From an uncultured Victivallis sp. (GTDB taxonomy: Bacteria > Verrucomicrobiota > Lentisphaeria > Victivallales > Victivallaceae), in NCBI GenBank assembly GCA_944389815.1, contig CALXNS010000087.1:1-64000 (forward strand): a stretch of DNA of 64,000 bases, in the 5' to 3' direction. Positions 34,137 to 37,953 of the stretch are shown piece after piece. The notes under the pieces are model-generated. The model ran no database searches. It saw only the letters and a program-made list of their open reading frames with translations, and was not told where the DNA came from. The position numbers and the translations under genes were made by a program. Positions within the stretch are counted from its first letter, which is position 1, and each line of letters starts with the position of its first letter.

Positions 34137-35588
34137 ATGATTCGTTCATTTGAAGAGGCGCTGGGGCCGGTTTTCGTGGCACGGCATGGCTTGGATGGTT
34201 ACGCACCGGGGCGGATTCTCAATGATTCGCGCAAAATTCTGCCGGGCGATATATTCATTGCGATTCCCGGAAGCCGGATGGATGGACACGATTTCATTCC
34301 CGCCGCGATCCGCGCCGGAGCGCAGTGCGTGATTCACGAGAAGGATCTGGATGAATATCTGCCGAAAACCACTTACATACAGGTCTCCGATGCGCATCGG
34401 GCCTACGCGCGCTGCTGCCGGGAGTTCTGCGGTCGTCCCGACGAGGTGGTGAAACTTTTCGGCGTAACCGGAACCAACGGGAAGACCACGACGGCGTTTC
34501 TGCTCGAACATCTGCTGCGTGCGGGGGGGGTGCCGTGCGGTCTGGTTTCGTCCGTGGAGTATCGGGACGGGAAAATCGTCCGGCCGTCGACGCACACGAC
34601 GCCGGAGTCGGGGGTTCTCTTCCCGCTGCTTGCGGAAATGCGCCGGAACGGATTGAAGGCGGCGGCGCTGGAAATTTCCAGTCATGCGCTCGATCAGGGG
34701 CGTTCTGCGGGGGCGTGGTTCCGGGTGGCGATCTTCACCAATCTGACCGGTGATCATCTCGATTATCACGGCGACATGGAACATTATTATCAGGCGAAGA
34801 AGCGCCTGTTCACCGAACAACTCCATCCCGACGGCTGCGCGGTCATCAACATCGACGATCCCTACGGTCGGCGGCTGGCTTCCGAACTGACGGATCGGCG
34901 GATCATCACTTTCGGGACGGATGAATCGGCGGAGTGGGTCATTCAGGAGCAGACGTTGACGGAAAACGCCTCCAGTTTCCGTCTGGCCGGAAGGGAGCGC
35001 GCCTTCGATATCGGCAGCAATCTGATCGGCGAACACAACATACACAATCTTGCCGGGGCGCTTCTGGCGGTGCTGGATTTCGGCCTGACTCCGGAAGCGA
35101 TCGACAATGCGCTTGCCGAACCAATCCGGATTCCGGGGCGGCTGGAGGCGTTCAAACTCTCGACCGGGGCGACGGCGTATGTCGATTACGCCCACACGGA
35201 CGATGCGCTTGAGCACGTGTTGTCGCTCTTGCGGAAGATTTCCCGCGGCCGTGTGATCGTCGTCTTCGGCGCGGGCGGCGACCGCGACCGGAGCAAACGG
35301 CCCCGCATGGGAAGAGCGGCGGCGCATCATGCCGATCTGGCGATCGTGACCAGCGACAATCCGCGCAGTGAAAATCCGCAGACCATCATCAACGAGATCG
35401 TCGCCGGGATGCCGCCGAAGTTCGACTACGAAATCGAACCCGACCGCAAGAAGGCGATTCAGCGTGCGGTATTCCTTTCACGTCCCGACGATCTCATATT
35501 GATCGCGGGCAAGGGCCACGAAACGTATCAGGAAATCGCCGGCGTGCGGAGCCATTTCGACGACCGCGAGATCGTCAGGGAACTTTGA
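34137..35588 (+). CDS. murE: UDP-MurNAc-tripeptide synthetase (meso-DAP-adding)
   Basis: 483 residues from the ATG at 34137. The 112-bp gap after murF holds no convincing gene. DSRKILPGDIFIAIPG, the P-loop GVTGTNGKTTTAFLLEHLL, EISSHALDQGR, NLTGDHLDYHGDM and YVDYAHTDDAL are the Mur ligase landmarks. The specificity motif is TSDNPRSENP: DNPR selects meso-diaminopimelate, so the wall is of the DAP type expected for a Gram-negative. The end overlaps the convergent MlaA-fusion gene by 14 bp. Confidence 0.95.
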   Translation: MIRSFEEALGPVFVARHGLDGYAPGRILNDSRKILPGDIFIAIPGSRMDGHDFIPAAIRAGAQCVIHEKDLDEYLPKTTYIQVSDAHRAYARCCREFCGRPDEVVKLFGVTGTNGKTTTAFLLEHLLRAGGVPCGLVSSVEYRDGKIVRPSTHTTPESGVLFPLLAEMRRNGLKAAALEISSHALDQGRSAGAWFRVAIFTNLTGDHLDYHGDMEHYYQAKKRLFTEQLHPDGCAVINIDDPYGRRLASELTDRRIITFGTDESAEWVIQEQTLTENASSFRLAGRERAFDIGSNLIGEHNIHNLAGALLAVLDFGLTPEAIDNALAEPIRIPGRLEAFKLSTGATAYVDYAHTDDALEHVLSLLRKISRGRVIVVFGAGGDRDRSKRPRMGRAAAHHADLAIVTSDNPRSENPQTIINEIVAGMPPKFDYEIEPDRKKAIQRAVFLSRPDDLILIAGKGHETYQEIAGVRSHFDDREIVREL

Positions 35589-37953
35589 TCGCGTCGAGAA
35601 TTTCCTGCTGAACTGTCGTCACGTAGAGGTTGCCGAGGTGGCCGCCGTGATCGAACCAGGTCAGGCGGCTGCCCATTGTCCGGTCGAGGAATTGGCGGTC
35701 TTCTTCCGTCAGCAGCAGATCGTCGTAATTGTGGAGAATCCGGACGTTCGGGTTGCGGTGCAATGATTCTTCCATCGAACGCAATCCGGAGAGGCGGTAG
35801 AGTTCGGCGAGATCGAGTTCGGGATATTCGGTGGGCGCGAGAATTTTCTCGGCGTATTCCTTGTAACTGATCTGATCAATCTCCAGATAAAGCCGGTTGC
35901 GGTCTCCCCATTTGTAAGGGGTTTTGAGAGATTCGAGCGGCCGGTTCCGATGCGCGGTGAGGAGGAGGCTCCGCAACGGCATCCGGAAATAGAGCGCCGC
36001 CAGATAATCGGCCTGTTCCGCAGTGATCGGCGCGCGGTAATCGAATGCTGCGCCCTCTTTCGCCTCCGGATCGTACGGCGGATATTGGCGGGCCATGGCG
36101 AGGAACGCCTTTCCGGCGGCGTCGGTGAGTTTTTCGAGAGCCTGTTCCTGATTCCAGGCGGCGCTGCCGGCGGTCAACGCATCGGCGATCTCCAGCGCGT
36201 TGCCGAGTTCAACCGGAGGATTGATGGCGACGAACCGGCTGATGCCGAGGGTGTTTTCCATTTCCTCAAGTTCGGCGATCTTGAGCGTGTGCACACCGCC
36301 GAGGGAGTAACCGAGAAGAGAGATGTCCCAGTCGGAAATGCCGGTCTCTTCCCGGATGTCCGCCTTGACTGAATGCAGCACCTGACGGATCATTTCGGCA
36401 TCTCCGGGAACGAATCCGGGAAGTCGCCCGCTCGCGGTGTAGAACTGCCAGCTGAAAGTGCTGTCGAGCGCTGCGACGGCGTAACCGTTGCGGTGGGCGA
36501 GTTCCGCGAGCGCGGTCGTGGTCATGCCGAAATAATTTCCGCCGATGCCGGGCAGCAGCACCAGCAGCCGATGGCGGGGCGCGGGCGGAGTGGGAACGTC
36601 CGGATTGCCATCCTCGCCGCCTGACGTGACGGGTTCGTCGTCCGCATCCTCTTTTTCCGCAGCGGCCCAGAAGCCGTAACGGATCGGTTCGGCGTCTTCG
36701 CCGAACGGATAAATTTTGCGGTCATCGCACTGTTTGCTGAAGTCGGAGTTGAAGACCGACAACCGGAAATACCACGGGTCGTCGTTGTTTTCCGCCTGAA
36801 ACATTACGACACGCAACGTGTCGAGAATTGCGCTCTCCCCCCGGTACCCCGGAATCGTCCGCCAGTTTGCCGTAAGTTCCGCCGGTTTGTCGGCGGCTGT
36901 TTCCATGGGGGCGGGATTTTCCGTTTCCTGTTCCTGCGGCATGGCGGCGGCGACGGTGACGGTTTCATTTCCAGATGTGGTGTTTGAAGGAACAACTTCC
37001 TCTGTGGAAGTAATTTGAATTTCCATTTCTTCTGCATTCTGCGCATCCTGCGCTTCCTGCTCCTCCGCCGCAATTTGAACTTGTTCCGCCATGTCCTGCG
37101 CCTCCGGAGCATCTGGTGCATCCTCCGCGATTTGAACTTGTTCATCGGTCGGAAGCGGTTCTGCTTCAACGTTCGGTGTTTTTTCCTGTGCTTTTCGGGC
37201 GGCGGCCGCGGCGTTTTTCGCATGCCAGAAATATTGCTGGAGCAGGAGCTCGCGGCGCAGCACCATGAGTTCACGATAGGATTTGTAGGGATCCGCGCTG
37301 CCCTGGACCACCGGTGTGTAGGCGCGGTGCGCGACGACCATGCGGTTGAGCGCGGTGGCGTATCCCGCGAACGGGATGTAGGTTTTGAGGTCGAAGGCGA
37401 TGTCGAAGATGCTGCCGACCGAGTCGCGGACGTTGACCGACGACATCAAAGGCAGCATGAAGGTGCACCCCGGTCCGATGCCCCATGCGGCGAAGGTCTG
37501 CCCGAAATCCGAATCCGTCGAATAAATGTCGAACCAGGCTCCTGCCGGATCGAACAATCCGGCAATGCCGATGGTGGTATTGATGAGGAAACGCATGGTT
37601 TCATCTCCGGCGCCCTCCCATTCGGCGCGGGCCAGGCAGCTGAACGCCCGGGCGGGAAATTCGAGATTGACGCAGAGATTGTCGAATTTTTCAATTGCGG
37701 GCCGCGGCAGGATCGACGTGTAAACTCTGCCGAGCGGATCGACGAAGTAATTCATCACGAAATCCGTGCAGGCGAACATCGAACGGTTGAAGCCTTCGAT
37801 GGGATCATCTCCGGCGAGGGTGTTCTCCAGTTCGGATGCCGTCCACGGGGTGCCGTGCGGTTCGGGATCGGGATCGGTCACGGCGCAGCCGCAGGCAAGA
37901 AACAGGAAAAGAACGGGAAGCACCAGCCATGTAACAATGTTTTTCGCCGCCAT
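35575..37953 (-). CDS. MlaA/VacJ lipoprotein fused to an alpha/beta hydrolase
   Basis: 792 residues; GGAGG 7 bases before the ATG. A lipoprotein-type signal (cysteines 21 and 23 after VLPVLFLFLA) leads into an MlaA/VacJ domain (about residues 48-265): DPIEGFNRSMFACTDFVMN, then LINTTIGIAGLFDPAG, DFGQTFAAWGIGPG and FMLPLMSSVNVRDSVG. A Gln/Glu/Ala-rich linker (about 280-400) follows. The C-terminal part is an alpha/beta hydrolase: RLLVLLPGIGGNYFGMTTT for the oxyanion region, nucleophile elbow GYSLGG with Ser550, and WFDHGGHLGNL with His769/His772 near the end. MlaA removes phospholipids from the outer leaflet of the outer membrane, so a fused lipase/esterase could degrade or remodel them. The enzyme activity is inferred from the triad only. 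Confidence 0.82.
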   Translation of the reverse strand: MAAKNIVTWLVLPVLFLFLACGCAVTDPDPEPHGTPWTASELENTLAGDDPIEGFNRSMFACTDFVMNYFVDPLGRVYTSILPRPAIEKFDNLCVNLEFPARAFSCLARAEWEGAGDETMRFLINTTIGIAGLFDPAGAWFDIYSTDSDFGQTFAAWGIGPGCTFMLPLMSSVNVRDSVGSIFDIAFDLKTYIPFAGYATALNRMVVAHRAYTPVVQGSADPYKSYRELMVLRRELLLQQYFWHAKNAAAAARKAQEKTPNVEAEPLPTDEQVQIAEDAPDAPEAQDMAEQVQIAAEEQEAQDAQNAEEMEIQITSTEEVVPSNTTSGNETVTVAAAMPQEQETENPAPMETAADKPAELTANWRTIPGYRGESAILDTLRVVMFQAENNDDPWYFRLSVFNSDFSKQCDDRKIYPFGEDAEPIRYGFWAAAEKEDADDEPVTSGGEDGNPDVPTPPAPRHRLLVLLPGIGGNYFGMTTTALAELAHRNGYAVAALDSTFSWQFYTASGRLPGFVPGDAEMIRQVLHSVKADIREETGISDWDISLLGYSLGGVHTLKIAELEEMENTLGISRFVAINPPVELGNALEIADALTAGSAAWNQEQALEKLTDAAGKAFLAMARQYPPYDPEAKEGAAFDYRAPITAEQADYLAALYFRMPLRSLLLTAHRNRPLESLKTPYKWGDRNRLYLEIDQISYKEYAEKILAPTEYPELDLAELYRLSGLRSMEESLHRNPNVRILHNYDDLLLTEEDRQFLDRTMGSRLTWFDHGGHLGNLYVTTVQQEILDAIKVP

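Follow-up and report, generated by a model that had tools for sequence, protein, structure and literature searches.

A natural fusion of an MlaA lipoprotein with a probable MlaY-type phospholipase in Victivallis

Two questions about MlaA-family proteins are how they hand lipid to a partner and why Pseudomonas aeruginosa possesses two MlaA paths. In Escherichia coli, MlaA has a C-terminal tail in the periplasm to which MlaC is recruited, and the channel of MlaA is aligned with the lipid pocket of MlaC (PMC10245069, PMC10719372). In P. aeruginosa, according to papers that relate the work of Guest et al. 2023 (PMC11131202, PMC11977310, PMC12569750), the MlaA homologue PA3239 (MlaZ) hands mislocalised phospholipid to the lipase PA3238 (MlaY) for degradation; the catalytic triad given for MlaY in one of these accounts is Ser187/Asp388/His415 (PMC11977310). 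Here we describe a gene in which an MlaA lipoprotein and an MlaY-type α/β hydrolase are joined in a single polypeptide. It lies in a 64,000-nucleotide stretch of DNA from an uncultured Victivallis sp. (contig CALXNS010000087.1), the whole of which is referred to below as the window.

We suggest, with a probability of about 0.8, that the gene encodes a natural fusion between an MlaA lipoprotein and an MlaY-type phospholipase, that is, a one-polypeptide MlaZ-MlaY pathway that replaces MlaC-dependent return in this lineage. What our data establish is the domain make-up, a triad that is both intact and invariant, the homology to MlaY, the conserved association with MlaA and the exclusion of MlaC. 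From these we infer a phospholipid substrate, lipase activity, direct hand-over, docking of the domains, a periplasmic location and a role in lipid asymmetry. The open reading frame (ORF) comprises 792 codons from its ATG, with no stop or frame break, and is laid out as follows (pLDDT, predicted local distance difference test):

35575..37953, minus strand: mlaA-hydrolase (mlaZ-mlaY-type) fusion gene, 792 amino acids (open frame; matched in 34 of 41 genomes)
37885..37953, minus strand: lipoprotein signal peptide with lipobox Cys at residue 23 (C23) (GC lipobox in the same alignment column of relatives; lipidation predicted)
37249..37809, minus strand: MlaA domain, residues 49-235 (Pfam PF04333, E 7.9e-44, and fold match to 5NUO/5NUR)
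36889..37221, minus strand: Ala/Glu/Gln-rich linker of ~110 residues, residues ~245-355 (composition; pLDDT)
35578..36888, minus strand: MlaY-type α/β hydrolase domain, residues 356-792 (AlphaFold2, VIA-align, homology to P. aeruginosa MlaY)
36304..36306, minus strand: codon of the nucleophile Ser550, in GYSLGG (identical in all 34 diverse members compared; aligns with MlaY Ser187)
35755..36207, minus strand: large helical cap within the hydrolase, residues ~583-733 (model secondary structure, between core strands 571-577 and 737-742)
35719..35721, minus strand: codon of the catalytic acid Asp745 (identical in all 34 diverse members compared; aligns with MlaY Asp388)
35638..35640, minus strand: codon of the catalytic His772, in DHGGHLGN (identical in all 34 diverse members compared; aligns with MlaY His415)

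The initial annotation of this ORF had proposed a lipoprotein signal, an MlaA/VacJ domain, a Gln/Glu-rich linker and a hydrolase with GYSLGG at Ser550 and a C-terminal DHGGH, and each of these elements was recovered; Asp745, which it had not named, completes the triad with the His772 of DHGGH. The match of the protein to PF04333 scores 150 bits against a curated cut-off of 25. In Foldseek comparisons, the MlaA half superimposes on the solved MlaA structures 5NUO and 5NUR with a template modelling (TM) score of 0.82 and a root-mean-square deviation of 2.7-2.8 Å; when 5NUQ is included, TM scores range from 0.77 to 0.82 at 26-27% identity. The linker consists of 22% Ala, 18% Glu and 11% Gln. In a structure model of the whole protein (pLDDT 87, predicted TM score [pTM] 0.83), part of it is predicted to be helical, while residues 315-347 have low pLDDT, and its length across 78 fusions varies from 7 to 136 residues (median 40). 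At its 3' end, the fusion gene overlaps the 3' end of a convergent murE-like ORF by 14 bases (window 35575-35588).

Modeled alone with AlphaFold2, the C-terminal half yields a confident α/β hydrolase (pLDDT 90, pTM 0.91) that VIA-align places at Z scores of 18-20 to esterases, lipases and thioesterases, and the part of the whole protein beyond the MlaA half likewise matches α/β hydrolases in Foldseek. By sequence, this half alone stays below threshold for every Pfam and NCBIfam family; among its relatives, Abhydrolase_6 is matched by 20 of 29 and Abhydrolase_1 by 17 of 29. Assignment to one generic named hydrolase family was rejected, as no family exceeded the threshold and sequence matches in the PDB were weak (best E 1.3e-4); the fold matches point to no single family either, with many esterases at similar Z. 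Stand-alone hydrolases of the family carry N-terminal Sec-like signal peptides, as judged by eye, in agreement with a periplasmic enzyme.

For a direct comparison with MlaY, a P. aeruginosa plasmid record was used in which an α/β hydrolase gene is followed by a gene for a VacJ lipoprotein. Residues 187, 388 and 415 of this hydrolase are Ser, Asp and His, and we take it to be MlaY because these residues equal the published MlaY triad. A profile of the hydrolase family matched it with E 7e-70 (about a dozen sequences searched), and the window hydrolase aligned with it at 26% identity over 348 residues with the triad in register (BLAST E 1.6e-30, 8-sequence set). In a hydrolase tree, the MlaY-type enzymes and those of the Planctomycetes-Verrucomicrobia-Chlamydiae (PVC) type fall on opposite sides of a fully supported branch. 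By sequence, the two types are thus one family with a deep split. The mlaYZ-like pair of P. aeruginosa plasmid pHPA0698-2 (L243:3285-5453) is flanked by genes that resemble a chromosomal block, and two more P. aeruginosa plasmid records match the hydrolase.

The 41 genomes surveyed at close range were the window's own and those of 40 relatives. Most of the matching ORFs are fusions; a smaller set consists of two abutting or overlapping ORFs in the order mlaA-hydrolase, and these two-ORF versions are spread over several families of the order. Carriers of the fusion include the isolate Victivallis vadensis DSM 14823 (L108) and complete chromosomes such as CP071032.1 (L123). Two outcomes that the initial annotation had named as speaking against its proposal, a match of the hydrolase half to a non-lipolytic family with a broken triad and absence of the fusion from close relatives, were not what we found: S550/D745/H772 is intact and close relatives have the fusion. 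Profile searches for MlaA, the hydrolase and MlaC (PF05494) were extended to 289 genomes of the phylum, 83 of which matched the hydrolase profile. At the loci read in this survey, every hydrolase was fused to MlaA or encoded by the next ORF, save for pieces at contig ends. Fusions also occur outside the class, in Verrucomicrobiota (e.g. an Akkermansiaceae bacterium and Pedosphaera), and within the sampled class the genomes that lack the hydrolase also lack MlaA, except for three that pair MlaA with MlaC.

In the same 289 genomes, MlaA was found in 114 and MlaC in 31, one of the latter without MlaA. The 114 genomes with MlaA divide into 82 with the hydrolase only, 29 with MlaC only, one with both and two with neither (Fisher p 1.3e-23 for exclusion, a value that ignores shared ancestry). 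MlaC (PF05494) was found neither in the window's own genome nor in 82 of the 83 genomes with the hydrolase. The only genome with both partners (G191) has two MlaAs, one beside MlaC and one fused to the hydrolase. As for the genomes with neither, the MlaA of G280 is cut short by the end of its contig and clusters with fused MlaAs in the tree, and G283 has a long-branch MlaA (L189:5138-5965) with no MlaC or hydrolase within ~4-5 kb. Among the near relatives, MlaC occurs in G035 only, beside a plain MlaA and without the hydrolase. This mutual exclusion points to a choice in each MlaA lineage between carry-back and destruction in place, and to a reliance on phospholipid destruction throughout a whole lineage of gut and environmental bacteria. 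A C-terminal MlaC-recruiting tail, expected in MlaC-linked MlaAs but not in hydrolase-linked ones, was rejected as a marker of the partner, as most MlaC-linked MlaAs of the phylum also stop right after the core. In the MlaA tree, the MlaA part of the window protein lies on a branch separate from MlaZ; a single clade, and with it a single origin, of all hydrolase-linked MlaAs is neither shown nor rejected (approximately unbiased test, p-AU 0.159).

Public genomes scanned for the hydrolase showed it in Gammaproteobacteria and other Proteobacteria as well, where its gene lies directly upstream of mlaA and usually overlaps it; the same adjacent arrangement, hydrolase gene upstream, is found in Fusobacterium vincentii and Skermanella. 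In G307, the two genes are ~24 kb apart, apparently on the same contig. The gammaproteobacterial metagenome-assembled genome RYN_606 (L148:7566-9860) encodes both parts in a single open frame in the reverse order, hydrolase to MlaA, which is likely an independent fusion event. Gammaproteobacterial genomes usually have one MlaA copy near MlaC and another with the hydrolase. The F. vincentii pair (L244:3375-5448) sits in a 2.1 Mb record that is filed as a plasmid and looks like a chromosome. In Skermanella mucosa (L245:3363-8113), the pair is directly followed by a gene for a TamB-domain protein; the TamB family has been linked to the delivery of phospholipids to the outer membrane.

Based on these results, we propose that the MlaA domain would be located in the outer membrane, where it would collect phospholipids mislocalised to the outer leaflet. 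The C-terminal end of this domain, the site of MlaC recruitment in the periplasm of E. coli, bears the hydrolase instead, and the tethered lipase may cut the lipid on the periplasmic side, such that destruction in place would substitute for the MlaC-dependent return of intact phospholipid. A wider form of this proposal, to which we give even odds, holds that Lentisphaerota and some Verrucomicrobiota keep asymmetry by hydrolysis, an MlaA-lipase replacing the MlaC shuttle, that the lipase sits at the MlaA channel exit with a direct path from channel to active site, and that MlaC and MlaY-type lipases are mutually exclusive MlaA partners across bacteria.

The initial annotation had also stated that the window contains no other mla gene. 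None was found on the window's contig, but elsewhere in the genome, on different contigs, there are two genes for MlaE and two for MlaD. The MlaD open frames comprise 342 and 351 residues (L032, L033), and the frame on L033 follows an MlaE frame; MlaE itself occurs in 40 of the 41 near genomes. Long MlaD has been described for many phyla, as the ancestral MlaC-independent form (PMC10665443). These features would fit a scheme, unlikely in our estimation, in which the hydrolase is an accessory and MlaA gives intact phospholipid directly to the long MlaD of two MlaE-D complexes, without MlaC. However, PVC MlaD is described as lacking the barrel at the outer membrane (PMC10665443), the mlaE and mlaD genes are unlinked to the fusion, and the hydrolase is consistently retained alongside MlaA, its triad intact. 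Moreover, MlaE is present in three relatives that have neither MlaA nor the hydrolase (G010, G011, G024), so that it probably does not depend on the fusion.

Slightly less probable still is that the hydrolase has a different lipid or ester as its substrate (acylglycerols, lipids of exogenous or dietary origin, or acyl transfer between lipids of the envelope), the MlaA half delivering this substrate for scavenging or remodeling and not for asymmetry. Esterases, thioesterases, monoacylglycerol lipases and acyltransferases all have this fold, the hydrolase is only ~26% identical to MlaY, and several relatives are gut bacteria according to their records. Yet members of this family accompany MlaA in widely differing lineages and habitats, a pattern that favours an endogenous substrate in the envelope, and the MlaY precedent also speaks against this reading. 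An assembly artefact or the accidental joining of two genes is highly improbable: the genome is assembled in 135 contigs, but the frame is unbroken and dozens of independent genomes have the same fusion, among them the isolate named above and complete chromosomes.

Several observations nevertheless weigh against an MlaA-phospholipase fusion that stands in for MlaC. The low identity to MlaY, together with the deep separate branch, means that the substrate of the window hydrolase could differ from that of MlaY, and lipase activity in the window protein and in all its fused relatives is something we infer. A genome of the same genus with 99% completeness (G006) is without the gene. The MlaA tree requires as few as two partner switches; the exclusion counts are thus not independent and reflect few events plus paralogue pairs. 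Finally, an MlaC could be present that is too diverged for PF05494.

The initial annotation had regarded the locus as a candidate for an undescribed arrangement in which extraction may be coupled to hydrolysis. The type of system has already been described in P. aeruginosa, but three things look new, namely the joining of the two parts in one protein, the fact that this fusion is fixed in Lentisphaerota and some Verrucomicrobiota, and the near-perfect exclusion of MlaC; the literature searched, in which the original MlaYZ paper was represented by the papers citing it, contained no mention of an MlaA-hydrolase fusion or of Lentisphaerota MlaA. Coupling is well supported by conservation of the family, the invariant triad, the adjacent-gene versions and the MlaYZ precedent, although the precedent originally invoked, MlaA plus PldA, was the wrong one and gives way to MlaZ plus MlaY. 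With both parts naturally joined in one chain, their stoichiometry and their proximity, which the MlaYZ model only proposed, are fixed. The fusion thereby supports hand-over from MlaA to a lipase, and it offers one purifiable protein with which such hand-over can be tested.

A one-gene alternative to MlaA plus PldA is therefore not an apt description. PldA (OmpPLA) would have in common with the fusion the proposed outcome, destruction of mislocalised phospholipid, but it is an outer-membrane β-barrel acting in the outer leaflet, unrelated to the α/β fold of the hydrolase half; with PF02253 matched in none of the 41 near genomes, it was rejected as the model system. General α/β-hydrolase lipases and esterases, including PlaF (6I8W), have the core fold and triad in common with the window hydrolase, which differs from them in belonging to no common curated sequence family, in its ~150-residue helical cap and in its pairing with MlaA. 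As in the canonical Mla system (MlaA-OmpC/F, MlaC, MlaFEDB), the MlaA domain has the fold of 5NUO and the genome encodes MlaE and MlaD, unlinked to the fusion gene; unlike in that system, MlaC (PF05494) was not detected and the lipid is predicted to be degraded instead of carried to the inner membrane. The closest system is MlaYZ. In both, an MlaA-family protein is paired, by fusion or adjacency, with a homologous α/β hydrolase, S550/D745/H772 align with Ser187/Asp388/His415, and the hydrolase-paired MlaA copy is distinct from the MlaC-linked one. MlaYZ coexists with the canonical pathway, whereas the fusion is the sole MlaA of a genome with no detected MlaC. Moreover, MlaYZ is encoded by two separate genes in the order mlaY-mlaZ, whereas the window protein is a single polypeptide in the order MlaA-hydrolase, which makes it a variant, and not a plain member, of the MlaYZ system.

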